A DNA stretch of 64,000 bases, taken from NCBI RefSeq assembly GCF_000011185.1, contig NC_002689.2, positions 434,001-498,000 on the forward strand, read 5' to 3'. This DNA comes from Thermoplasma volcanium GSS1. Lineage in GTDB: Archaea; Thermoplasmatota; Thermoplasmata; Thermoplasmatales; Thermoplasmataceae. The notes beneath the pieces were generated by a model. It saw nothing but the letters and a program-made list of their open reading frames with translations, did not search any database and was not told the DNA's origin. This document shows, piece after piece, positions 1-11,326 of the stretch. Numbering within the stretch: position 1 is the stretch's first letter; each line of letters begins with the position of its first letter. The translations under genes were made by a program, and so were the position numbers.

Positions 1-393
1 ATTAGTCTTTACTATACTATCCAAAGTTAGACCATAAGAATCATAGAATGAAATTGTCTCGTGGTCTATTCCGAGGCTAGTGCAAAGCCTCTTGGCACTT
101 TCCAGCCCACTTGGTCTATATCCATCTATACCTTCATCGACAGTAAAGGCCTTTATTTTCATATTTTTCCTATTACCTAGGATCTTGTGGAGAAGAAAAA
201 GGGTAACAGACGAATCCTTCCCACCAGAAAGTGCAACAGATATCGTTACATCATCACCGTGGAATTCTACCTGTTTTCGTATCTCCTTCTTAACCCTGCC
301 TTCGATCATCTCATTAAAATGATCTCGGCATAGGTATAAGCCATTGTATTTAGCATAATAAATGGCTTCTGCACTACACTTTGAGCATTTCAT
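1..393 (-). CDS. TtuA/NcsA-type tRNA 2-thiolation protein, partial (C-terminus outside window)
   Basis: The reverse strand reads from an ATG at 393 down to base 1 without a stop, giving the first 131 residues. An N-terminal zinc motif is visible (Cys3, Cys6, Cys22, His25), followed by the ATP-pyrophosphatase PP-loop SGGKDS at residues 56-61. This arrangement is characteristic of the TtuA/Ncs6 family, which activates a tRNA base with ATP and inserts sulfur (2-thiouridine or 2-thiocytidine). Known members are about 300 residues, so more than half the gene lies outside. It is divergent from nothing obvious: the next gene upstream is a broken mutarotase on the same strand. The choice between TtuA, Ncs6 and TtcA-like function cannot be made from this fragment. 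Confidence 0.85.
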   Translation of the reverse strand, partial: MKCSKCSAEAIYYAKYNGLYLCRDHFNEMIEGRVKKEIRKQVEFHGDDVTISVALSGGKDSSVTLFLLHKILGNRKNMKIKAFTVDEGIDGYRPSGLESAKRLCTSLGIDHETISFYDSYGLTLDSIVKTN

Positions 394-444
394 AACAAGC
401 AAGTATCAGGATTTGATATTAATAAATACTGAATTAAAGCGTCA

Positions 445-1626: not shown

Positions 1627-1695
1627 ATTTTTGGACAGTTCCGATACCTTATTTTTATCCTTTATTGAATTCATTGTACTTGGTAGCGATCTTAT

Positions 1696-2799
1696 ATGAG
1701 AACACTTGTTTTGACTGGCATCAAAAAGATGGAGATTGAGGATAATAAATTGGAAGATCCGCAAAGAGGGTGGGTTACACTTAAGGTAAATTATGCTGGC
1801 ATACGCGGCTCTGAACTTTCAGCATTTGTAGGTCAGAACGAGTTGAGGAAGTCACTCTCAGTAATGGGTCACGAGTTTACAGGAAAAGTTGTAAAATTAG
1901 GAGAGGATGTAGATCCTAAACTTCTTAATAAAAACGTTGCTGTTAATCCACTTGTGACATGCGGAAAGTGCAGGTATTGCAAGACTGGAAATAGACAACT
2001 CTGTCTTGAGAGGAAGCTGATTGGTGTGGACTATCCAGGTGCTTTTGCAGAGTATGTGAACGTCCCTGAGTACTCTTGTTACGAGATAAAGGAAATCCCT
2101 GAAGCTTCATTGGCAGAACCGCTCGCTACTGCCCTGCGTGGCGTACTTCAGGCTGGACCTGAAATTGATGATAGGGCCCTTGTCATAGGTGCGGGAACAA
2201 TAGGATTGCTGGCCACAAAGATATTCTCTTCTGTGGGTTGCAGGAAAGTAGTTTCAATGGATATCAACGATAACAGACTTGAACATGTTGACATATTGAT
2301 AAACAATGCGGGTATATGTCCATTTGAAGATTTCTTCAAAATCGATATAGATCTTTTTGAAAAGGTCTGGAAGGTGAATGTAGAGAGCCATTATTTTATT
2401 ACGCAGGCTGTGAGCAAGCACATGATCGAAAAGGGAATCAAAGGTCGAATTTTAATAATGAGTTCGATAAGTGGACGCGTAGGAGGAGAATTTCAGACTC
2501 ACTACACAACGACAAAATCAGCTCTGAATGGATTCATGCATTCAGTAGCGATAGTACTTGGTAGATATGGGATACTCGTAAATAGCCTAGAACCTGGGAC
2601 AATAACTACTGATATAAATAAAGACGATCTTTCTAACGAAGAGAAAAGGAAATACATGGAGAGAAGGACTGTAGTAGGGAGGCTGGGTGATCCAGAAGAT
2701 ATGGTTGCACCAGCTCTCTTCTTAGTCTCCGACGATAATACCTATGTAACTGGCTCCGAGCTGCTTGCCGATGGAGGCATGTTTATAAATTTACAGTAA
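1696..2799 (+). CDS. Hybrid dehydrogenase: zinc MDR N-terminal half fused in frame to SDR C-terminal half
   Basis: This is a 367-residue chimera. Residues 1-195 are a medium-chain zinc dehydrogenase: GHE at 58-60, four structural-zinc cysteines (89, 92, 95, 103) and the nucleotide motif GAGTIG at 165-170 followed by an acidic strand end (MDIND). The usual catalytic-zinc Cys in GICGS is Arg here (GIRGS). At about residue 197 (base 2284) the sequence becomes a short-chain dehydrogenase from its fourth strand onward: VDILINNAG, MSSISG with the catalytic Ser, YTTTK with Tyr270 and Lys274, then the C-terminal LLADGG region. The SDR half lacks its own TGxxxGxG motif and the MDR half lacks its substrate-domain tail. 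A deletion between two neighbouring sugar dehydrogenase genes is the simplest origin. Activity is unknown. Confidence 0.85.
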   Translation: MRTLVLTGIKKMEIEDNKLEDPQRGWVTLKVNYAGIRGSELSAFVGQNELRKSLSVMGHEFTGKVVKLGEDVDPKLLNKNVAVNPLVTCGKCRYCKTGNRQLCLERKLIGVDYPGAFAEYVNVPEYSCYEIKEIPEASLAEPLATALRGVLQAGPEIDDRALVIGAGTIGLLATKIFSSVGCRKVVSMDINDNRLEHVDILINNAGICPFEDFFKIDIDLFEKVWKVNVESHYFITQAVSKHMIEKGIKGRILIMSSISGRVGGEFQTHYTTTKSALNGFMHSVAIVLGRYGILVNSLEPGTITTDINKDDLSNEEKRKYMERRTVVGRLGDPEDMVAPALFLVSDDNTYVTGSELLADGGMFINLQ

Positions 2800-2835: not shown

Positions 2836-2865
2836 CATTGACCTTAGGACAAGTGTATTTTCAGG

Positions 2866-2949
2866 CGCTGGGAGGGAGATTTGAACTCCCGAGCTCTAAT
2901 GAGCACAGGTTTTCCAGACCTGCGCCTTACCAGGCTAGGCTATCCCAGC
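2866..2949 (-). tRNA. tRNA-Ser(GGA)
   Basis: The reverse strand folds as a type II tRNA. The acceptor stem is GCTGGGA/TCCCAGC with discriminator G. The anticodon stem CAGGT/ACCTG encloses the loop CTGGAAA, giving anticodon GGA. A long variable arm (TGCTCATTAGAGCT) and a T-arm with GTTCAAATC follow. The long variable arm and anticodon both indicate serine. CCA is not encoded. Confidence 0.95.
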
Positions 2950-10310: not shown

Positions 10311-11326
10311 CAATACACCCTTTTTTCTATTCCAAGACTCTTATCAGTCTTTTCAATTGATTTTTCCTTATCAGCTAGATTGAACATTGCCCTTATTGCA
10401 TCGACATTTTCAGGTATTACATCGCTCTCCTGGTGAACAGCCTGGATATAACTTATTCTGTTGGCCTTTGCTGAAACGCTGCCTTCCCATATAGCTATTT
10501 CGTATAGGTCTGAGCGGTCTCTGCCAAATTCTCGAGCAAGATCCATAATCTGGGCAGTGGACTTTATTCCGTCGTCCTTCTTTACATGTATTATACGCCT
10601 ATAATTATTCCATGCTTCGAGCACACCATCGTTTGATGCATTCTTCTCTGTATCTACCTGAACCACGTGTACGTGCATTAATGTTGTTGGAACCTTTATG
10701 GCGACAGTATTCACGTCTATGTTTCCCATTACAGTCTTTAGGTCAGGGGCATGGTGTGAAGGTATTTTTAAGCTTGGCTCAACCGCATTTATGGGCCCTT
10801 TGCTGCTATCGTTTTGATCCGTTGCTCTTCTGATGAGGGTAGCTTCAACATGCTTAACGCCAAAGGCTTGCTGAATTGGATATAAAGTTCTCGCCAAACC
10901 TGTTGTGTTGCAGGAAACTACCCTCACATAAGATTTTCCAATAGCGTCATTGTAATTTGAATAAGCATTAAAACTTGTTTCTGCTACATCAGGCTCTTCT
11001 CCGCCTTCAAATATCGCTTTAGCCTTCTTTTTTATGTAGAGCGGCTTATTCTTTTCACCCATGCCTTCGGGAGTCGCATCTACTATTATCTCCGCATCAT
11101 CTAAAAGGTTGTCAAGCGTACCTTCAACCTTTATGCCGGCATCCTGAAAGGCTTTCATGTAGCTGCTATCCGGGACAAATATTTTGAATCTCCTGGAGGC
11201 CACTTCTGATATGTAGTCAGGCTTCGTTTTGACTATGCCTACAACTATCATATCGTCCTGGCTTGAGACAGCGTTTGCCACACGTCTTCCAATAGTTCCA
11301 TAGCCATTTATACCTACTCTAATCAT
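10310..11326 (-). CDS. gap: Archaeal type II glyceraldehyde-3-phosphate dehydrogenase
   Basis: The 338-residue enzyme starts with [13 protein letters not shown] (NAD(P) binding) and carries the catalytic Cys139 in [10 protein letters not shown], the archaeal form of the SCTTN motif. Length and motifs fit the phosphorylating archaeal class. In Thermoplasma sugar breakdown is thought to use a non-phosphorylating Entner-Doudoroff route, so this enzyme probably serves gluconeogenesis. A TATA box (TTTATAAG on the reverse strand, 11349-11356) lies about 23 bases before the ATG, so the transcript should be nearly leaderless. radA overlaps its stop. Confidence 0.96.

Follow-up and report, generated by a model that had tools for sequence, protein, structure and literature searches.

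An in-frame hybrid of a zinc dehydrogenase and L-rhamnose 1-dehydrogenase in Thermoplasma volcanium, probably a relic of a dismantled rhamnose cluster

The window analysed here is a stretch of 64,000 nucleotides from the genome of Thermoplasma volcanium GSS1. Positions 1696 to 2799 of its forward strand form one open frame that starts with ATG and encodes a protein of 367 residues, made up of parts of two dehydrogenases. Residues 1-197, ending at His197 (positions 1696-2287), are the N-terminal half of a zinc dehydrogenase of the MDR type, comprising the GroES-like domain and the first beta-alpha-beta unit of the Rossmann fold, and are 70-74% identical to the separate mdr genes of four other genomes (G001 to G004). 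Residues 198-367 (positions 2285-2799) are the C-terminal two thirds of the short-chain dehydrogenase (SDR) L-rhamnose 1-dehydrogenase, running from strand 4 (VDILINNAG) to the C-terminus and including the Ser-Tyr-Lys site, and share 84-85% identity with the separate sdr genes of G001 to G003. In Pfam searches ADH_N matches residues 24-132 (80.1 bits against a cut-off of 23.5) and adh_short_C2 matches residues 193-362 (135 bits); since the latter match covers profile positions 67-235 of 236, the SDR part lacks the first ~66 profile positions. No MDR C-terminal domain scores above the Pfam cut-off in the hybrid. With the intact congeneric genes as queries, tblastn aligned mdr to 1690-2286 and sdr to 2278-2796, and in a PDB search the L-rhamnose 1-dehydrogenase structure 7b81 was matched from its own residue 96 while MDR enzymes matched residues 1 to ~200. 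Pfam, tblastn and the single open frame thus bear out the original prediction of an in-frame MDR/SDR hybrid. The hybrid is real: both of its halves match specific genes of other Thermoplasma species (69-85% identity), far beyond chance.

The predicted anatomy is also present in full, with the GAGTIG loop, the acidic MDIND end of strand 2, VDILINNAG, the Ser-Tyr-Lys residues and four structural-zinc cysteines. Like the zinc MDR of the Thermoplasma rhamnose cluster, residues 1-197 carry the structural-zinc cysteines (CGKCRYC...C), GHE and GAGTIG; unlike it, the hybrid has no second Rossmann half and no C-terminal return to the catalytic domain, the MDR match ending near residue 197. The catalytic-zinc cysteine (GICGS in orthologues) is lost, as had been proposed: codon 37 (1804-1806) is CGC and encodes Arg, a change unique to the hybrid among the eight orthologues, the seven others all having Cys. 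In the SDR half the alignment shows the catalytic residues kept (SSIS...HYTTTK). The TGxxxGxG cofactor loop of SDRs is absent, with the GAGTIG of the MDR in its place.

L-rhamnose 1-dehydrogenase of the Thermoplasmatales type (NF041159, Rham_dhyd_Thplmales) is cited in PMC12028159 as the T. acidophilum enzyme of Kim 2012, and structures of L-rhamnose 1-dehydrogenase from A. vinelandii are available (7do5-7do7, 7b81). Hybrid residues 198-367 align with the Thermoplasmatales type from strand 4 to the C-terminus and keep the Ser-Tyr-Lys site and the -NLQ tail, whereas some 80 N-terminal residues are missing, and with them TGGSRGIG, strand 3 and helix 3. Against this model the hybrid scores 346.8 bits (profile positions 74-253 of 253), below the curated cut-off of 450 bits, and the intact sdr of G001 scores 483.4 bits, above it.

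In terms of Rossmann topology the hybrid consists of MDR strand 1, a helix and strand 2, followed by SDR strands 4-7, and the edge strand 3 and its helix are missing. An AlphaFold2 model gave a mean pLDDT of 59, with the join (residues 184-205) below 50 and no strand formed at VDILINNAG (strand 4); as the alignment was shallow and the model had no intact control, this points only weakly to a hybrid that does not fold well. A thinner alignment gave a pLDDT of 45.7, and an SDR-rich alignment that misplaced the MDR rows was replaced by a better set, whose 13 SDR rows were selected among random subsets for the separation of the two halves by MAFFT, independently of the fold result. The best Foldseek match was L-rhamnose dehydrogenase, with TM 0.43/0.59 (0.43 by query length), a value of little weight given the low-confidence model.

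The two parts meet at positions 2285-2287 of the forward strand in a microhomology of three nucleotides, ATG, and the codon phase is identical before and after it. The window reads GAACATGTTGAC at the junction, the mdr of G002 GAACATGCATTG and the sdr of G009 GGAAATGTTGATG; DNA similarity to mdr runs out at ...GAACATG and similarity to sdr starts from the ATG. The length of this overlap is an estimate, judged against the G002 and G009 genes in place of the parents of the hybrid's own lineage.

Upstream of the frame a promoter/operator-like element of the ancestral mdr promoter, GGACAGTTCC...TTTTTAT, lies at 1633-1658 on the forward strand and aligns in all six genomes compared; the GGAC(R)GTTCC-like and TTTTTAT elements are kept upstream of mdr in 6/6, and their spacing in the window is identical. 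The pattern GGAC[AG]GTTCC, nine nucleotides and TTTTTAT is found upstream of mdr in the window (1633-1658) and at L022:9705 and L140:8448, and a related sequence, GGACAGGTATGAT, occurs upstream of mfs. Sequence conservation marks this element as a candidate operator for the rhamnose regulator. The window lacks the start ATG that most congeners use, and a new ATG lies four codons in, at the ACG of the congeners. A promoter has probably been retained, and the hybrid may still be transcribed.

Congeners have complete sdr and mdr genes in a single L-rhamnose cluster, and in G001 to G003, G053 and others the two are separate and in the usual order. The cluster of G001 to G003 consists of rhaM, an aldolase-like gene, an MFS transporter, sdr, a regulator, mdr and a diketo-deoxy-rhamnonate-hydrolase-like gene, and ends on the other strand with a metallo-beta-lactamase-like gene and an enolase-superfamily (rhamnonate dehydratase-like) gene. 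In G001 the gene after mdr has 2,4-didehydro-3-deoxy-L-rhamnonate hydrolase as its best model match, below the cut-off. From its position in the cluster, mdr probably encodes 2-keto-3-deoxy-L-rhamnonate dehydrogenase, and on that reading both fused enzymes belong to one pathway. The mdr of G001 (L020:9790-10799) is itself broken: its frame shifts near 10596 and the conserved start position lacks an ATG. The MDR step seems to have been lost there independently. In the rhamnose cluster of G010 (L028), sdr, rhaM, mdr and mle are split by frameshifts or stops, a decaying or error-rich copy.

Gene order in these clusters bears directly on how the hybrid arose. The original prediction had suggested looking for the two parents as separate tandem genes in relatives; they are indeed separate and close together, but they stand in the opposite order to the hybrid and mostly with genes between them. 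In all 12 relatives where a single contig holds the two, sdr is upstream of mdr. A plain deletion in such a cluster would therefore yield the reciprocal combination, SDR(N)-MDR(C). Relative to these 12 relatives the order in the hybrid is reversed, as for a chimera derived from a tandem duplication or a circle.

Two further genes of the rhamnose cluster lie to the left of the hybrid. An L-rhamnose mutarotase frame like rhaM occupies 445-747 on the reverse strand; its 100 codons are readable apart from one in-frame TGA (597-595), where homologues have Gly, though the frame is strongly diverged. An HTH-type regulator of the rhamnose cluster follows at 910-1626 on the forward strand, its frame intact and strongly diverged, with 55-57% identity to the congeners' cluster regulator, against 83-99% for the congeners among themselves. 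The regulator differs at 37 of 137 sites that are invariant in five relatives, a larger number than a silent gene free of stops should show.

The order in the window is thus rhaM on the reverse strand (747-445), then the regulator and the mdr'-sdr' hybrid on the forward strand. Set against a presumed string sdr> <rhaM reg> mdr>, this is a circular permutation whose opening lies between sdr and rhaM and whose join falls within mdr and within sdr. In eight relatives (G009, G014, G016, G010, G083, G049, G097 and G371) sdr is followed tail to tail by rhaM, and in G016 the regulator follows sdr> <rhaM in the orientation seen in the window. The full presumed ancestral string was found in no single genome, and the permutation is therefore pieced together from several.

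The location has changed as well. To the left lies the start of an Ncs6-like tRNA thiolation gene (1-402, reverse strand) and to the right a tRNA-Ser (GGA) gene (2864-2949, reverse strand), the same tRNA that adjoins L7ae in G001 to G004. The Ncs6-like gene neighbours tRNA-Ser and L7ae in G001, G003 and G004, while in G002 they are on separate short contigs. Between these flanks the other genomes have a small unrelated gene (G001 a second one too) and no rhamnose genes. As the flanks are conserved without rhamnose genes in other Thermoplasma, the site of the segment differs from that of the congeners' cluster. We sought a duplicated 3' end of tRNA-Ser in the window, as for tRNA-mediated integration, and found none within three mismatches; direct repeats at the ends of the segment gave nothing informative.

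Little else of the pathway is present in this genome, a single contig of 1,584,804 bp. Close copies of the transporter, rhamnonate dehydratase, diketo hydrolase and lactamase-like gene are all absent (best 31-41% identity), and neither of the missing halves, SDR(N) or MDR(C), was found (best 41% and 23%). Flanking intact or reciprocal copies of the parents are likewise absent from the genome; because the reciprocal copies may have been lost, an origin by duplication or through a circle is something we infer and cannot prove.

Substitutions suggest that part of the segment has evolved faster than its orthologues. In a comparison of the hybrid with seven other orthologues, its MDR half is changed at 9 of 94 otherwise invariant sites (W6L, P24R, C37R, P53S, P54L, S70E, A149G, L177F and V187S), while any other orthologue is changed at 0-2. 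The SDR half is changed at 4 of 106 (A240S, L304T, E310D and L363F, which are milder); the congeners have none there, but G053 has 11. The corresponding counts are 37/137 for the regulator, 9/28 for RhaM and 3/108 for the Ncs6 control. Relative-rate counts with G009 as outgroup gave 17-18 changes on the window lineage against 5-8 for the MDR half, 23-28 against 4-10 for RhaM, 11-13 against 5-7 for the SDR half, where the excess is not significant, and no window-lineage excess for Ncs6. By Fisher tests the MDR half against Ncs6 is borderline (p 0.07), and neither the MDR half against the SDR half (p 0.15) nor the whole hybrid against Ncs6 (p 0.19) differs significantly.

If the excess reflects neutral drift since the fusion, it amounts to ~0.026 changes per site. 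The probability that a neutral ORF of that age would still be open is 0.37 counting stops alone and 0.05-0.14 with frameshifts, assuming 0.05-0.1 indels per substitution; the open frame is therefore mildly surprising for a relic and does not require selection. Codon models gave omega values of 0.04 and 0.014 on the window branch, much of which may precede the fusion, and as synonymous sites are saturated the dN/dS of this branch cannot date the fusion.

The architecture is not widely conserved, which agrees with the view of it as a new fusion. Among 400 genomes of the class both halves occur in one frame only in the window's own genome, and no other hybrid was found among the best 80 GTDB loci matching six short hybrid peptides. 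Double matches in Paraburkholderia (L121:5761-7686 and L122:5752-7635) proved to be SDR and MDR genes that lie side by side in one orientation but remain separate. We found no description of the gene in the literature searched. A parallel is offered by the Drosophila chimeras formed at tandem-duplication breakpoints, in which the front of the downstream gene is joined to the back of the upstream gene (PMC4503668). The hybrid has that front/back order; unlike the Drosophila cases, the intact flanking copies are gone, the segment is at a new site and the junction unit alone is left.

Taken together, we think it probable that the hybrid is a young, still-open relic of a dismantled L-rhamnose catabolic cluster, produced by a rearrangement from mid-mdr to mid-sdr. 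The middle of mdr would have been joined to the middle of sdr at the three-nucleotide microhomology, closing the segment sdr(C)-rhaM-reg-mdr(N) on itself, either as an excised circle or as the junction of a tandem duplication. The closed segment would then have been re-opened between sdr and rhaM, the circle being re-integrated or the tandem duplication losing both its flanks, and would have come to lie with the Ncs6-like gene on one side and tRNA-Ser on the other, the remaining cluster being lost. The reading frame would have survived the join by luck, and the hybrid would most likely yield no working enzyme and be drifting. This reading draws on the gene order in relatives, the flanks that lack rhamnose genes in other Thermoplasma species, the absence of pathway genes and reciprocal halves, the nonsense codon in rhaM, the excess of changes in the MDR half and RhaM, and the poor fold model. 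It is weakened by the stop-free frame, the kept mdr promoter element, the intact regulator, the mildly changed SDR half, a dN/dS far below 1 on a branch with saturated synonymous sites, the non-significant rate differences and an ancestral string pieced together from several genomes.

The original prediction had offered a deletion fossil that happens to be open as one possibility. An open fossil is supported; its origin by deletion is poorly supported, since sdr is upstream of mdr in all relatives that have the two on a single contig. A simple deletion could still apply if the ancestor had already been reordered to reg> mdr> ... sdr>, so that one event at the junction sufficed to fuse mdr to sdr. 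The order of the cluster does vary between relatives, reg, rhaM and mfs differing in position and orientation, but mdr precedes sdr in 0/12 of them, and the unseen reordering would also have to leave rhaM at the left end in just the orientation that a permutation predicts; we consider this route unlikely. Lower still we place a working chimeric oxidoreductase with a new substrate, its Rossmann fold built from MDR strands 1-2, which would supply the dinucleotide loop, and SDR strands 4-7, which would supply the remaining sheet and the Ser-Tyr-Lys site, with the GroES-like domain and its structural zinc appended and the old rhamnose promoter and regulator in use. The open 367-codon frame with codon phase kept at the join, the promoter with its operator-like element, the intact though diverged regulator and a mildly changed SDR half that retains its catalytic residues all fit such an enzyme, in which edge strand 3 and its helices alone would be missing. 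Each half, however, lacks part of its own domain, the MDR catalytic-zinc Cys is lost, the pathway partners are absent from the genome, and the hybrid falls below the RhaDH family cut-off, with a low-confidence join, an unformed strand 4 and a best TM of 0.43 in the fold model; a functional protein thus seems distinctly improbable. That the hybrid came from two real genes wrongly joined in sequencing or assembly is very improbable indeed: one assembly is its sole source, but the 1.58 Mb single contig holds no other copy of either half or of the missing halves to mis-join, the flanks are syntenic and the MDR half has unique substitutions of its own.

If the hybrid is a relic of the rhamnose cluster, it would be a clean example from the Archaea of a rearrangement that circularly permuted an operon and fused two enzymes of the same pathway in frame, caught before the frame broke. 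If instead the protein works, it would show that an exchange of dinucleotide-binding halves between two dehydrogenase superfamilies, made within the fold, is possible in nature.
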